Under the pieces are notes generated by a model. The model was not told the DNA's origin. It was given only the letters and a program-made list of their open reading frames with translations, and ran no database searches. A program made the position numbers and the translations under genes. A DNA stretch of 64,000 nucleotides from Verrucomicrobiaceae bacterium (GTDB taxonomy: Bacteria; Verrucomicrobiota; Verrucomicrobiia; Verrucomicrobiales; Verrucomicrobiaceae), in contig CANIBP010000020.1 in assembly GCA_947466075.1 (NCBI GenBank), positions 1 to 64,000 on the forward strand, read 5' to 3'. Positions 58,493 to 62,390 of the stretch are shown piece by piece; the first letter of the stretch is position 1; every line of letters starts with the position of its first letter.

Positions 58493-59119
58493 CTACTTCA
58501 GCTCCTGAATCCGCAGATTGCGGAACTTGTAGGTCTGCCCCTTCTCACCGTGATGCTGGATGGCGATCACGCCGCTGGCGTCCTTGTCATCTTCCACGTC
58601 GGTGGTCAGCACGCCGTTGACGAAAATCTTGAGGCTCTTGCCTCTGCACTCGATGCGGTAGGTGTTCCAGTCGTTGCGCTTGAAGGCCTCGACTGCACGA
58701 GCGCGGAACGCGGCTTCACTTTCGGCATTGCCCTTGATTGGGCTGATGAACCACATCCGGCGTCCTTCATCATACAAGCCACCGCTCCACTTGCGTTTTG
58801 CATCGCCATCGACTTCGGCCTGGTAGCCGAAGACTTTGTTCTTCTCCACGTGAGCGCGAAACATGAAGCCGCTGTTCGCTTGGCCTTCCGGCAGCAGGAT
58901 GTCGCCTTCAAAAATGAAGTCGCCGTAGGTTTTCTCGGTCACGACGAAGAATTTCTTGTCGCCGGTGAGATGAACTTCCCCATTCACGACTTCGATCTTC
59001 CCCCAGTCATACGCATTCTTCCATCCGGTCATCGTCTTGCCGTCGAAGAGCGAGACCCAGTCTTCTGCGGCGGCAGGAATGGCGATGGCGAGAGCGGCGA
59101 GGATAAGATGCTTTTTCAT
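58493..59119 (-). CDS. DUF1080 (3-keto-disaccharide hydrolase-like) protein
   Basis: The ORF runs to 59575, but the ATG at 59119 starts a clean signal peptide (MKKHLILAALAIAIPAAAEDW) and gives 208 residues. The DUF1080 wording is clear: WVSLFDGKTMTGWKNA, DFIFEGDILLPEGQANSGFMFRA and QHHGEKGQTYKFRNLRIQEL. These jelly-roll proteins are very abundant in Verrucomicrobiota and Planctomycetota; some family members hydrolyse 3-keto-glycosides. Divergent from the AbrB-Doc module over 81 bp. Confidence 0.9.
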   Translation of the reverse strand: MKKHLILAALAIAIPAAAEDWVSLFDGKTMTGWKNAYDWGKIEVVNGEVHLTGDKKFFVVTEKTYGDFIFEGDILLPEGQANSGFMFRAHVEKNKVFGYQAEVDGDAKRKWSGGLYDEGRRMWFISPIKGNAESEAAFRARAVEAFKRNDWNTYRIECRGKSLKIFVNGVLTTDVEDDKDASGVIAIQHHGEKGQTYKFRNLRIQELK

Positions 59120-59168
59120 GGTGGAGGTCCGAATCTGGCAGAATTGGCTTAAGAGGCAATCCAAGCTT

Positions 59169-59182
59169 GATGTTATAACATC
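59169..59182. promoter_or_regulatory. Perfect 14-bp palindrome, candidate operator of the AbrB-Doc module
   Basis: GATGTTATAACATC is a perfect palindrome ending 18 bp before the antitoxin ATG, and its centre TTATAAC resembles a -10 box. Autorepression by the antitoxin at such a site is usual for toxin-antitoxin modules. Binding here is inferred. Confidence 0.6.
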
Positions 59183-59200
59183 CGTGCCTACACTCCTTCC

Positions 59201-59422
59201 ATGGACCTCAAGCTCCGCAAAATTGGCAACTCTGTTGGCATCGTCTTGCCCAAAGAAGCACTCGCTCACCTCAAAGCCGAGGAGGGAGACACCATCGCAC
59301 TTACCGAGACTCCCGATGGTTATCGGGTCAGCCAAAGCCAATCCGACTTTGCCAAAACAATGGCGGTGATGAAAAGTCTCTCCCAGCGCTATCGCAACAC
59401 GCTTCGTGAACTTGCCAAATGA
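59201..59422 (+). CDS. AbrB/MazE-type antitoxin
   Basis: A 73-residue protein with the swapped-hairpin DNA-binding sequence LRKIGNSVGIVLPKEALAHL and EEGDTIALTETPDGYRV, typical of MazE/AbrB antitoxins. The C-terminal helix (FAKTMAVMKSLSQRYRNTL) should contact the toxin. It overlaps the Doc-type toxin by 4 bp (ATGA), and a palindrome lies just upstream. Confidence 0.88.
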   Translation: MDLKLRKIGNSVGIVLPKEALAHLKAEEGDTIALTETPDGYRVSQSQSDFAKTMAVMKSLSQRYRNTLRELAK

Positions 59423-59808
59423 AGGAGCCCTACTGGCTGACGCGCGAGGAGTGCCTGGCTCTGCACGAAATGATGGTAGCCCAATACGGCGGTGCGCTTG
59501 GCTTGCGGGATGAGTTTCTGCTCGAGTCAGCGCTCGCCAAACCGAAAAATGTATTTGCCTACGGCCATCCAACAATGGCGGACCTTGCCGCCGGTTATGC
59601 GACAGGGATCGTCAAGAACCACCCTTTCCTGGATGGAAACAAGCGAACCGGATTCATGATGGGGGCCGGTTTTCTGGAGCGAAACGGCTTTGAATTCTTT
59701 GCTAGCGAAGCGGATGCCGCCATTCGCACTCTAGCTCTCGCTGCCGGAGAAATGACCGAGTCTGCTTACGCGGCATGGCTTGAGACGAACTCGAGGCGGT
59801 TGAAATAA
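59419..59808 (+). CDS. Doc-type Fic-fold toxin
   Basis: A 129-residue protein of the death-on-curing family. The Fic/Doc active-site motif reads HPFLDGNKRTGF; Doc kinases typically have HxFxDANKRT, so the Asp-Gly pair gives a form between Doc and Fic. The N-terminal WLTREECLALHEMMVAQYGG is the standard Doc start. Doc phosphorylates EF-Tu in P1; the same target is assumed only by family. The C-terminus (WLETNSRRL) is complete and no frameshift is seen. Confidence 0.9.
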   Translation: MKEPYWLTREECLALHEMMVAQYGGALGLRDEFLLESALAKPKNVFAYGHPTMADLAAGYATGIVKNHPFLDGNKRTGFMMGAGFLERNGFEFFASEADAAIRTLALAAGEMTESAYAAWLETNSRRLK

Positions 59809-60068
59809 TCTGCTTCAGGCCCGCCACACGGCCTCCATCAGCACGAGCCACTCTTTGACAGTGTGGCCACCATCGTCACATGCCCGCGACTCCAGGAGAG
59901 CAGCGGCGAAAGATTGCAGCCGGAAATACTTATATCCCCTATCAAAACAGGCCTTCCAGCCCCCTTGTCACCGAGGCCTCCGGAATGGCAGGTTGGACGG
60001 TTGTTACCGTAAAATACAACCAATGATTGCATTCAGGGCATCTTCTCGTTTAAAAGGGCTAACCACCC

Positions 60069-62390
60069 ATGAAAATCGCACTTCTTGTTTCTATTTTTGC
60101 CCTCACGACTGCCGCTTACGCGCAGCCGAAGTGGATCGAAGCCGAATCCTTTGCGAATCCCGGCGGGTGGGTGCTGGAGACTCAGTTCATTGATGTGATG
60201 GGCTCGCCCTACCTGATGGCGCACGGCATGGGTAAAGTGGTCAAAGATGCCAGCACCGACGTCAAGGTGCCAGCGGGCGAGTACACGCTTTGGGCACGCA
60301 CGAAGAACTGGGTTGGTCCATGGGATGCGCCGGGAGCACCGGGACGCTTTGAGATCAGCGTGAATGGCGAGAAACTGAAGCATGAGTTCGGCGTCTCAGG
60401 CAAGGATTGGCAGTGGGAGAAGGCGGGGCCGGTCAAGATCACGGACGCAGGTGCCAAGATCGCGCTGCATGACCTCACGGGCTTCGATGGTCGTGTGGAT
60501 GCGATTGTGTTGAGCGCTGACGCAGCCTTCACGCCGACAACTGAGATAAGAAGGAAAATGCTGGGCCTGCCAGAGAAAGCGCCGGAGACAAGCGAGTATG
60601 ACCTCGTCGTCGTCGGTGGTGGTTATTCTGGCATGGGTGCTGCGATTTCCGGCGCACGCCAGGGTTTGAAGGTGGCGTTCATTCAGAATCGTCCGGTGCT
60701 TGGCGGCAATGGATCGAGCGAAATCCAAGTTTGGGCCATGGGCGGCACACGTCGCGGTTTGTATCCGCATTTGGGCGAGATCGTCGAGGAGTTCGCGGAT
60801 CGTGCGAGCAACAGCCCGGCGGCATCGCCGGATGAGTTCAATGACAAGCTCAAGGAAGAGACGGTGAAAGCGGAAAAGAGCATCGACCTCTTCCTCAACA
60901 CGCACGTTTATGGCGTCGAGATGAACGCGGATAAAAAGAACATCCGCAGCGTCACCGGCCTCGATACCAAGACGGGCAAAGAAACTCGCTTTGTGGGCAA
61001 GTTGTTCGTCGATTGCACCGGTCACGGCAGCGTGGGTGCGCTGTCAGGTGCGGAGTTCATGATGGAAGAAAAAGGCCGCATGGGCATGAGCAACATGTGG
61101 GTGATGCAGAACATGAAAAAGCCCGTCACGTGGCCCGCCACACCTTGGGCGCTGCCTCTCAAGCTGGAAGACTTCCCTGAACCGCGTGCCATGGAACCCG
61201 TCGGCAAAAAGAATGCCGCAAACATGGCCGGGTTCGATCTAGGTTACACGCCGGTAAAAAATCCCGAAGAATTTCTTCATGGTGAGTGGTTCTGGGAGAG
61301 CGGCTTCAATAAGCACCCGATCAACGACCTCGAACTCATCCGCGATCACAACTTCCGTGCCGTCTATGGTGCCGTCTCCGCTTTGAAGACGCTATCGGCT
61401 GATAAATACGCCAACTACGATCTCAGCTGGCTCGCCTACATCGGCGGACCACGTGAGAGCCGACGCATCGTTGGTGACATGATCCTCAATGGCGAAGACA
61501 TGGTGAAGGGCACCATTTATCCGGATGGCTGCGTGCCGACGACCTGGGATCAGGACCTGCACTACCCGAAAGAGCAGTATGCGAAGAATTTTCCTGACAA
61601 TCCCTTCATCAGCCGCGCCGAATTCGGCAAGCATACCGACCGCAAAAACGGTTACCCCGTGCCCTACCGCTGCTTCTACAGCAAGGACATCGGCAACCTC
61701 TTCATGGCTGGCCGCACTATCAGCGTGGAGCGTCATGCGCTCGGATCGACCCGCGTCATGCGCACCTGCGGTATGATGGGCGAAGTCGTCGGCAAAGCCG
61801 CCTGGATCTGCGTCCGCCACCACACCACACCGCGCGGCGTGTATGAGCAGTATCTCGATATTTTGAAGGATCTCATGAACCAACCCGGCGCGATGCGTCG
61901 CGACACGCTCGAAGCCGATCTCAAGCTGCCCGCCAATGCAAAGAAACTTCCGCCCGTTGCCGATGTCGGCATCGACGTGAAGAAGCTCGAAGGCATCGTC
62001 ATCGACGACACCGAGGCCGAACTGAACGGCAAATGGTCCCATGGCGAAGGCTTGAAGCCTTTCATCGGCAAGCACTACAGCTTCAGCAGCGACAAGGCCG
62101 CCAGCGCTCGCTTTGCCTTCAGCGTGAAGCAGACCGGCAACTACGAAGTCCGCATCTTCTTCCAACCTCACGAAAACCGCGCCAAGACTGCTCCCGTGAG
62201 CGTGCTGAGCGCCGATGGCGAAAAAACGATCACCGTGAACCAGACGAAGCCCGCGCCGCTGCCGCAGGGAGCTTACAGCTTAGGAACCTTCAAGTTCACC
62301 GCCGGTGAAGAAGCCGCTGTGATCTTCCGCACTGCGGGTGCTGGTGGAAACGTGCATCTCGACGCCGTGCAGGTGCTGCCAGCGAAATAA
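60069..62390 (+). CDS. Exported FAD-dependent oxidoreductase with flanking sugar-binding-like regions
   Basis: A 773-residue protein with a signal peptide (MKIALLVSIFALTTAAYAQ). The first 150 residues resemble a carbohydrate-binding beta domain (WIEAESFANPGGWVLETQF, VPAGEYTLWARTKNW). Residues 175-610 form a FAD-dependent oxidoreductase (DLVVVGGGYSGMGAAISGAR, VLGGNGSSEIQVW, FVDCTGHGSVGALSGAEF). The last 130 residues form another beta-rich domain (GNYEVRIFFQPHENR). This is a common PVC arrangement. The substrate, perhaps sugar-linked, is unknown. The 260-bp gap upstream holds no gene that I can support. Confidence 0.87.
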   Translation: MKIALLVSIFALTTAAYAQPKWIEAESFANPGGWVLETQFIDVMGSPYLMAHGMGKVVKDASTDVKVPAGEYTLWARTKNWVGPWDAPGAPGRFEISVNGEKLKHEFGVSGKDWQWEKAGPVKITDAGAKIALHDLTGFDGRVDAIVLSADAAFTPTTEIRRKMLGLPEKAPETSEYDLVVVGGGYSGMGAAISGARQGLKVAFIQNRPVLGGNGSSEIQVWAMGGTRRGLYPHLGEIVEEFADRASNSPAASPDEFNDKLKEETVKAEKSIDLFLNTHVYGVEMNADKKNIRSVTGLDTKTGKETRFVGKLFVDCTGHGSVGALSGAEFMMEEKGRMGMSNMWVMQNMKKPVTWPATPWALPLKLEDFPEPRAMEPVGKKNAANMAGFDLGYTPVKNPEEFLHGEWFWESGFNKHPINDLELIRDHNFRAVYGAVSALKTLSADKYANYDLSWLAYIGGPRESRRIVGDMILNGEDMVKGTIYPDGCVPTTWDQDLHYPKEQYAKNFPDNPFISRAEFGKHTDRKNGYPVPYRCFYSKDIGNLFMAGRTISVERHALGSTRVMRTCGMMGEVVGKAAWICVRHHTTPRGVYEQYLDILKDLMNQPGAMRRDTLEADLKLPANAKKLPPVADVGIDVKKLEGIVIDDTEAELNGKWSHGEGLKPFIGKHYSFSSDKAASARFAFSVKQTGNYEVRIFFQPHENRAKTAPVSVLSADGEKTITVNQTKPAPLPQGAYSLGTFKFTAGEEAAVIFRTAGAGGNVHLDAVQVLPAK

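Follow-up and report, generated by a model that had tools for sequence, protein, structure and literature searches.

The window, by which we mean the whole 64-kb stretch of DNA that was analysed, contains a two-gene toxin-antitoxin operon on the forward strand. The antitoxin gene (59201..59422, + strand) encodes a 73 aa protein of the TasA/TIGR02609 family, with an AbrB/MazE-type N-terminal DNA-binding domain and a predicted C-terminal toxin-binding helix. The toxin gene (59419..59808, + strand) encodes a 129 aa protein of the Doc (death on curing) family, with the active-site motif HPFLDGNKR at residues 68-76. Its start overlaps the antitoxin stop by 4 nt (ATGA, 59419-59422). A perfect 14-bp palindrome, GATGTTATAACATC (59169..59182), is located 18 nt before the antitoxin ATG. 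Within it lies the first of two 8-bp boxes of the form GTN4AC, GTTATAAC (box 1, 59172..59179), which is kept upstream of relatives, and the second, GTGCCTAC (box 2, 59184..59191), lies 12 bp from box 1. The initial annotation had placed an AbrB/MazE-type antitoxin ahead of a Doc toxin, and this holds: both open reading frames are as it described, and both proteins score over the cut-offs of their families.

Antitoxin and upstream control region

The antitoxin passes the curated cut-off of the NCBIfam model TIGR02609 'doc_partner' (72.3 bits, cut-off 55.9) and scores just over that of PF04014 MazE_antitoxin (25.2 bits, cut-off 24.7). In the family-model searches, MazE/AbrB models match the protein and no Phd model does. 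A phmmer search also matches it to the Enterococcus faecalis antitoxin 9vzc_B (E=3e-4). The AF2 model, of modest confidence (mean pLDDT 73), shows a beta domain (residues 1-45) followed by a helix (48-72), and its nearest folds, all weak matches, are MazE/SpoVT/VapB, with MazE listed first. The features of TasA-family membership are present, namely a GNS motif at residues 9-11 and the C-terminal end RYRNTLRELAK. In the alignment, K4, R6, and N10 correspond to K8, R10, and N14 of the E. faecalis antitoxin. In that protein Lys8, Arg10, and Asn14 contact DNA, and the triple alanine mutant does not bind DNA (PMC13034048).

The palindrome alone carries little weight as evidence and was rejected as such, since ~4.7 perfect 14-bp palindromes are expected per 64 kb and 3 are observed in the window. 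It becomes meaningful through its place before the antitoxin ATG and because its core is conserved upstream of related operons. The conserved unit is the 8-bp core GTTATAAC together with the second box GTGCCTAC 12 bp on, while the GAT/ATC arms outside the core differ from relative to relative. The predicted operator in the window is thus a tandem one, GTTATAAC-atcc-GTGCCTAC (59172-59191). The palindromic operator put forward in the initial annotation therefore stands in part: the perfect 14 bp are there, but they make up half of the conserved tandem operator and their arms are variable. Covariation of the arms was considered as proof of a 14-bp site and set aside as weak, with shuffles reaching the observed count at a frequency of 0.04-0.2.

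The frequency of the tandem arrangement was measured in the relatives' upstream regions, thinned to 71, with dinucleotide shuffles and spacings of 8-24 as controls. The exact pattern GTN4AC-N4-GTN4AC is present at spacing 12 in 36 of the 71 regions (shuffles, mean 0.2), whereas exact GTN4AC pairs at the other spacings number 0-2 per spacing. When one mismatch is allowed, spacing 12 accounts for 50/71 regions compared with ~2 for shuffled sequences and 2-14 for the remaining spacings. The GTN4AC pattern was picked after some of the counted sequences had been viewed, but the spacing control is independent of that choice. The inner box bases (TATA), which lie outside the selection pattern, are likewise conserved, and covariation supports the centre pair of each box.

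The exact tandem syntax is found in Verrucomicrobiota families distant from the window's own and in Nitrosomonas, Acetobacter, Methylobacterium, and Dolichospermum, and so in three phyla (Verrucomicrobiota, Proteobacteria, and Cyanobacteria). One-base variants of it occur in Nitrospina and Leptospira, and the Leisingera site reads GTATATAC-atgc-ATATATAC. In the 6.37-Mb draft genome, the 20-bp tandem pattern with GTTATAAC as first box appears once, at this operon. The one fresh detail of the operon is its predicted control site, which is made of two matching 8-bp boxes kept in related operons of several phyla. No publication joining GTTATAAC to toxin-antitoxin systems was found in the literature searched, though an earlier description may exist. 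The tandem operator is not universal, since the boxes are absent from five plasmid relatives of the TIGR02609-like type (L078, L081, L084, L086, and L088). A distant second Doc clade carries a different conserved element next to the antitoxin ATG. The second Doc of the same genome (L002, contig C15 92845-93168; 39% identity) has its own AbrB antitoxin, and in its clade the conserved element, approximately GTAATACATAGTTTTAC, ends right at the antitoxin ATG.

The boxes coincide with the predicted promoter, in agreement with the initial annotation, which had the palindrome overlapping the likely promoter. The predicted -35 is TTGATG (59167..59172, + strand; TTGACG in many relatives), which matches the consensus at 4/6 positions and shares its last base with box 1. 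The predicted -10 is TACACT (59189..59194, + strand), located 16 nt after the -35 and 6 nt before the ATG, with its TAC shared with box 2. The pair encloses both boxes. The hexamer matches are weak (8/12), which explains why this promoter is not listed by a sigma-70 promoter scan. Of the 15 relatives in which a -35 is recognisable, 13 have the -10 at 5-7 nt from the antitoxin start. Only one of 41 judgeable loci (42 listed, one of them without an assigned start) shows a Shine-Dalgarno-like sequence after box 2 and ahead of the start, and no such sequence precedes the antitoxin ATG in the window (59194-59201) and in most genus relatives. With the promoter so close to the ATG and no Shine-Dalgarno sequence, a leaderless antitoxin message is predicted as the simplest reading. 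In other Verrucomicrobiota families (L049, L051, L052, L057, L059, and L063) box 2 directly abuts the antitoxin ATG, so the promoter there may be box 1 with TATAAC as the -10.

It is unlikely, though by no means far-fetched, that the operator consists of one palindrome, as described for E. faecalis and as drawn in the initial annotation, with box 2 simply belonging to the -10 region. Box 2 does share TAC with the -10 in the window's own genus, and the E. faecalis antitoxin bound just one of two oligonucleotides tested (PMC13034048). However, box 2 is still GTN4AC, and often GTTATAAC, at exactly 12 bp in loci with no following -10-like hexamer (e.g., L049, L058, L061, L079, L080, and L083), and the concentration of exact pairs at spacing 12 also speaks against a single site. 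So does an E. faecalis plasmid relative (L089), in which another GTATATAC stands ahead of the 10-bp E. faecalis site, 9 bp away.

Toxin fold and chemistry

The toxin passes the curated cut-off of TIGR01550 DOC_P1 (59.5 bits, cut-off 38.65) and matches PF02661 Fic (E=1e-17). Its nearest named relatives are from Prosthecobacter and other Verrucomicrobia, and its solved relatives by sequence are P1 Doc and E. faecalis Doc (9VZC). The AF2 model has a mean pLDDT of 92.7, and its best PDB match is P1 Doc (3dd7/3k33, TM 0.86; E 4.5e-7 for 3dd7). The Fic AMP-transferases are far weaker fold matches, the best Fic having an E of 7e-3.

The initial annotation had read HPFLDGNKRTG as intermediate between the Doc and Fic motifs. 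Compared with the published consensus sequences, HxFx(D/N)(A/G)NKR for Doc and HxFx(D/E)GNGRxxR for Fic AMP-transferases (PMC4257102), it is simply of the Doc type. Doc motifs may carry Gly ahead of Asn, as in (A/G)NKR, and the two families are told apart by the residue that separates N from R, which is Lys in Doc and Gly in Fic (PMC4257102, PMC13034048). The toxin has Lys in place of the second Gly of Fic, and where Fic has the GNGRxxR loop it reads GNKRTGF. Both the inverted binding of ATP and the kinase activity have been attributed to this single change of Gly to Lys (PMC7180214, PMC8401265). In one relative (L031, 1501-1884) the toxin is otherwise 88% identical and reads HPFLDGNMRTG, with Met for the catalytic-loop Lys at residue 75. 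This natural variant may be inactive.

A single EF-Tu gene of the host scores above the family cut-off, and its product ends in FAIREGGKTVGAGRVATILD and has a Thr within EGGKTVGAG. This residue is taken to be the equivalent of Thr382 in the E. coli protein. The Doc motif with its Lys and this candidate Thr, together with the characterised relatives, make phosphorylation of EF-Tu the default expectation for the toxin. In the E. faecalis relative, ATP was turned over to ADP with EF-Tu in an ADP-Glo assay (PMC13034048).

The toxin could instead be an AMP-transferase, or another nucleotidyl-transferase, of the Fic type, with gyrase or topoisomerase IV as its target and no EF-Tu kinase activity. 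PF02661 spans both Fic and Doc, the toxin motif opens with HPFxDGN as in Fic, and a Fic consensus of HPFx[D/E]GN[G/K]R has been given (PMC7479194). Nevertheless, this chemistry is improbable. With Lys at the G2 position, ATP cannot bind in the canonical way and takes up the inverted orientation that makes Doc a kinase (PMC8401265, PMC7180214), and the toxin sequence NKRTGFM lacks the second Arg of GNGRxxR. The fold match to Doc and the turnover of ATP to ADP by the E. faecalis relative also argue for a kinase.

Genomic setting and pairing in relatives

A TasA-type antitoxin is present in 87 of 90 loci, which are relatives of either protein and include some records more than once, and in most of them a Doc homologue lies just downstream. 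Plasmid partners annotated as AbrB/MazE and death-on-curing toxin occur in Proteobacteria (alpha and beta), Cyanobacteria, Acidobacteria, Spirochaetes (Leptospira), and Enterococcus. A profile built on the fetched loci also recovers antitoxins that accompany the distant Doc clade and that simple searches missed.

In the window, a 3-keto-disaccharide hydrolase gene lies on one side of the operon and a gene for an FAD-dependent oxidoreductase on the other. Two genus relatives (L092 and L095) have the hydrolase, a LacI-type regulator, and the FAD oxidoreductase without the toxin-antitoxin pair, and L031 and L032 have the pair between the hydrolase and LacI genes. From the window, where the pair sits, the LacI-type regulator gene is absent (59808-60069 region). 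The sites without the pair suggest that the operon is a local acquisition, or that the relatives have lost it. Another relative (L094, 2209-2433) has, at this genomic site, a TasA-like antitoxin gene (40% identity) on its own, no neighbouring Doc having been found. It is possibly a relic or a solitary antitoxin.

The palindrome is located in the intergenic region shared with the divergent hydrolase gene (58493-59119), but that it belongs to this gene is highly improbable, since TasA-type genes with very different neighbours also have the boxes upstream, and since in genus relatives the distance between the boxes and the antitoxin ATG is constant. The operon has no defence assignment, because PADLOC returned only partial matches of the toxin to Fic/Doc-domain candidate defence proteins (PDC-S23 and PDC-M59B, best E 1.5e-8) and none for the antitoxin.

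Proposed regulation and comparison with known AbrB-Doc systems

The locus is very probably an ordinary type II toxin-antitoxin operon, carried on the chromosome of a Prosthecobacter-like verrucomicrobium and belonging to the TasA-TasB family (AbrB/MazE-Doc, TIGR02609-TIGR01550), and we infer binding, repression, neutralisation, and EF-Tu kinase activity from the characterised relatives. The N-terminal AbrB-like dimer of the antitoxin would bind the two GTN4AC boxes, which lie between and overlap the -35 and -10, and would thereby silence the promoter of its own gene. Binding and neutralisation of the Doc toxin would fall to the C-terminal helix of the antitoxin (residues ~48-73, ending RYRNTLRELAK). 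Doc that is not bound would stop translation by phosphorylating EF-Tu on the conserved Thr.

The gene pair itself matters little, as the family it belongs to is large and already known. The tandem box syntax, on the other hand, offers a concrete operator model for the TasA family, in which one member was found with a published operator structure. It also bears on whether repression in AbrB-Doc systems is cooperative and toxin-dependent, as in P1 Phd-Doc. Whether TasA-family antitoxins use GTN4AC-N4-GTN4AC as a cross-phylum tandem operator, with two dimers (or toxin-bridged dimers) placed side by side on one promoter face, is an evenly balanced proposition. A tandem and toxin-assisted operator is favoured, though unproven, by the E. 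faecalis core, the double site of its plasmid relative, and the pneumococcal repeat and co-repression. If the operator is tandem, regulation would depend on the dose of Doc, as pneumococcal co-repression suggests, and the E. faecalis finding of a single operator that the complex does not bind would have come from testing an isolated 10-bp half.

The pairing of AbrB with Doc, which the initial annotation regarded as exceptional, is well documented. TasA-TasB was described in 2006 as a composite 'mazE-doc' system of Bacillus thuringiensis pGI1 (PMC1626090), and 55 Fic/Doc-AbrB pairs were counted in 2009 (PMC2701414). Pneumococcal phd-doc, of the TIGR02609 type and located in the tvr locus, was recognised in 2014 as a bona fide, auto-repressed toxin-antitoxin pair (PMC4257102, PMC6265443). 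Crystal structures of the E. faecalis pair, including operator DNA, followed in 2026 (PMC13034048; PDB 9VZC), and the model name 'doc_partner' already states the Doc pairing. The annotation itself had named, as evidence against its claim, the existence of numerous AbrB-Doc pairs of established function, and such pairs are largely on record in the literature and the family models.

With TasA-TasB (PMC1626090) the window shares a MazE/AbrB-like antitoxin upstream of a Doc-like toxin with the usual stop-start overlap, the GNS motif, the conserved antitoxin C terminus, and H(x)5NKR in the toxin. Unlike the plasmid-borne pair of pGI1, for which no operator analysis was found in the account as consulted, the present one is chromosomal. 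The E. faecalis chromosomal 'Phd-Doc' (9VZC) likewise has an AbrB-like N-terminal domain with Lys/Arg/Asn contacts to DNA (here by alignment), a C-terminal antitoxin helix on Doc (here predicted), and an operator core GTN4AC near the promoter. Its operator, TGTATATACA, is bound by the antitoxin in EMSA and contains the core GTATATAC, which is of the GTN4AC form; one operator was reported, and the toxin-antitoxin complex did not bind DNA (PMC13034048). The two systems differ in their low sequence identity and in the arrangement of the site, a single 10-bp palindrome there and two 8-bp boxes 12 bp apart here.

In S. pneumoniae phd-doc/tvrAT (PMC4257102, PMC6265443), the TIGR02609 antitoxin, the 4-nt gene overlap, and the inverted repeat over the -35 are all as in the window, and auto-repression is strengthened by Doc, being slight with Phd and nearly full with Phd and Doc. 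The candidate pneumococcal operator, GTAA.TTAC, lies over its -35 and is compatible with the GTN4AC box. The pneumococcal pair belongs to a type I restriction-modification locus, whereas the neighbours here are the hydrolase and FAD oxidoreductase genes. The P1 phage Phd-Doc system is similar in the Doc toxin fold (here modelled) and active-site motif, but its antitoxin has the unrelated Phd fold and its operators are two palindromes located downstream of the -10.
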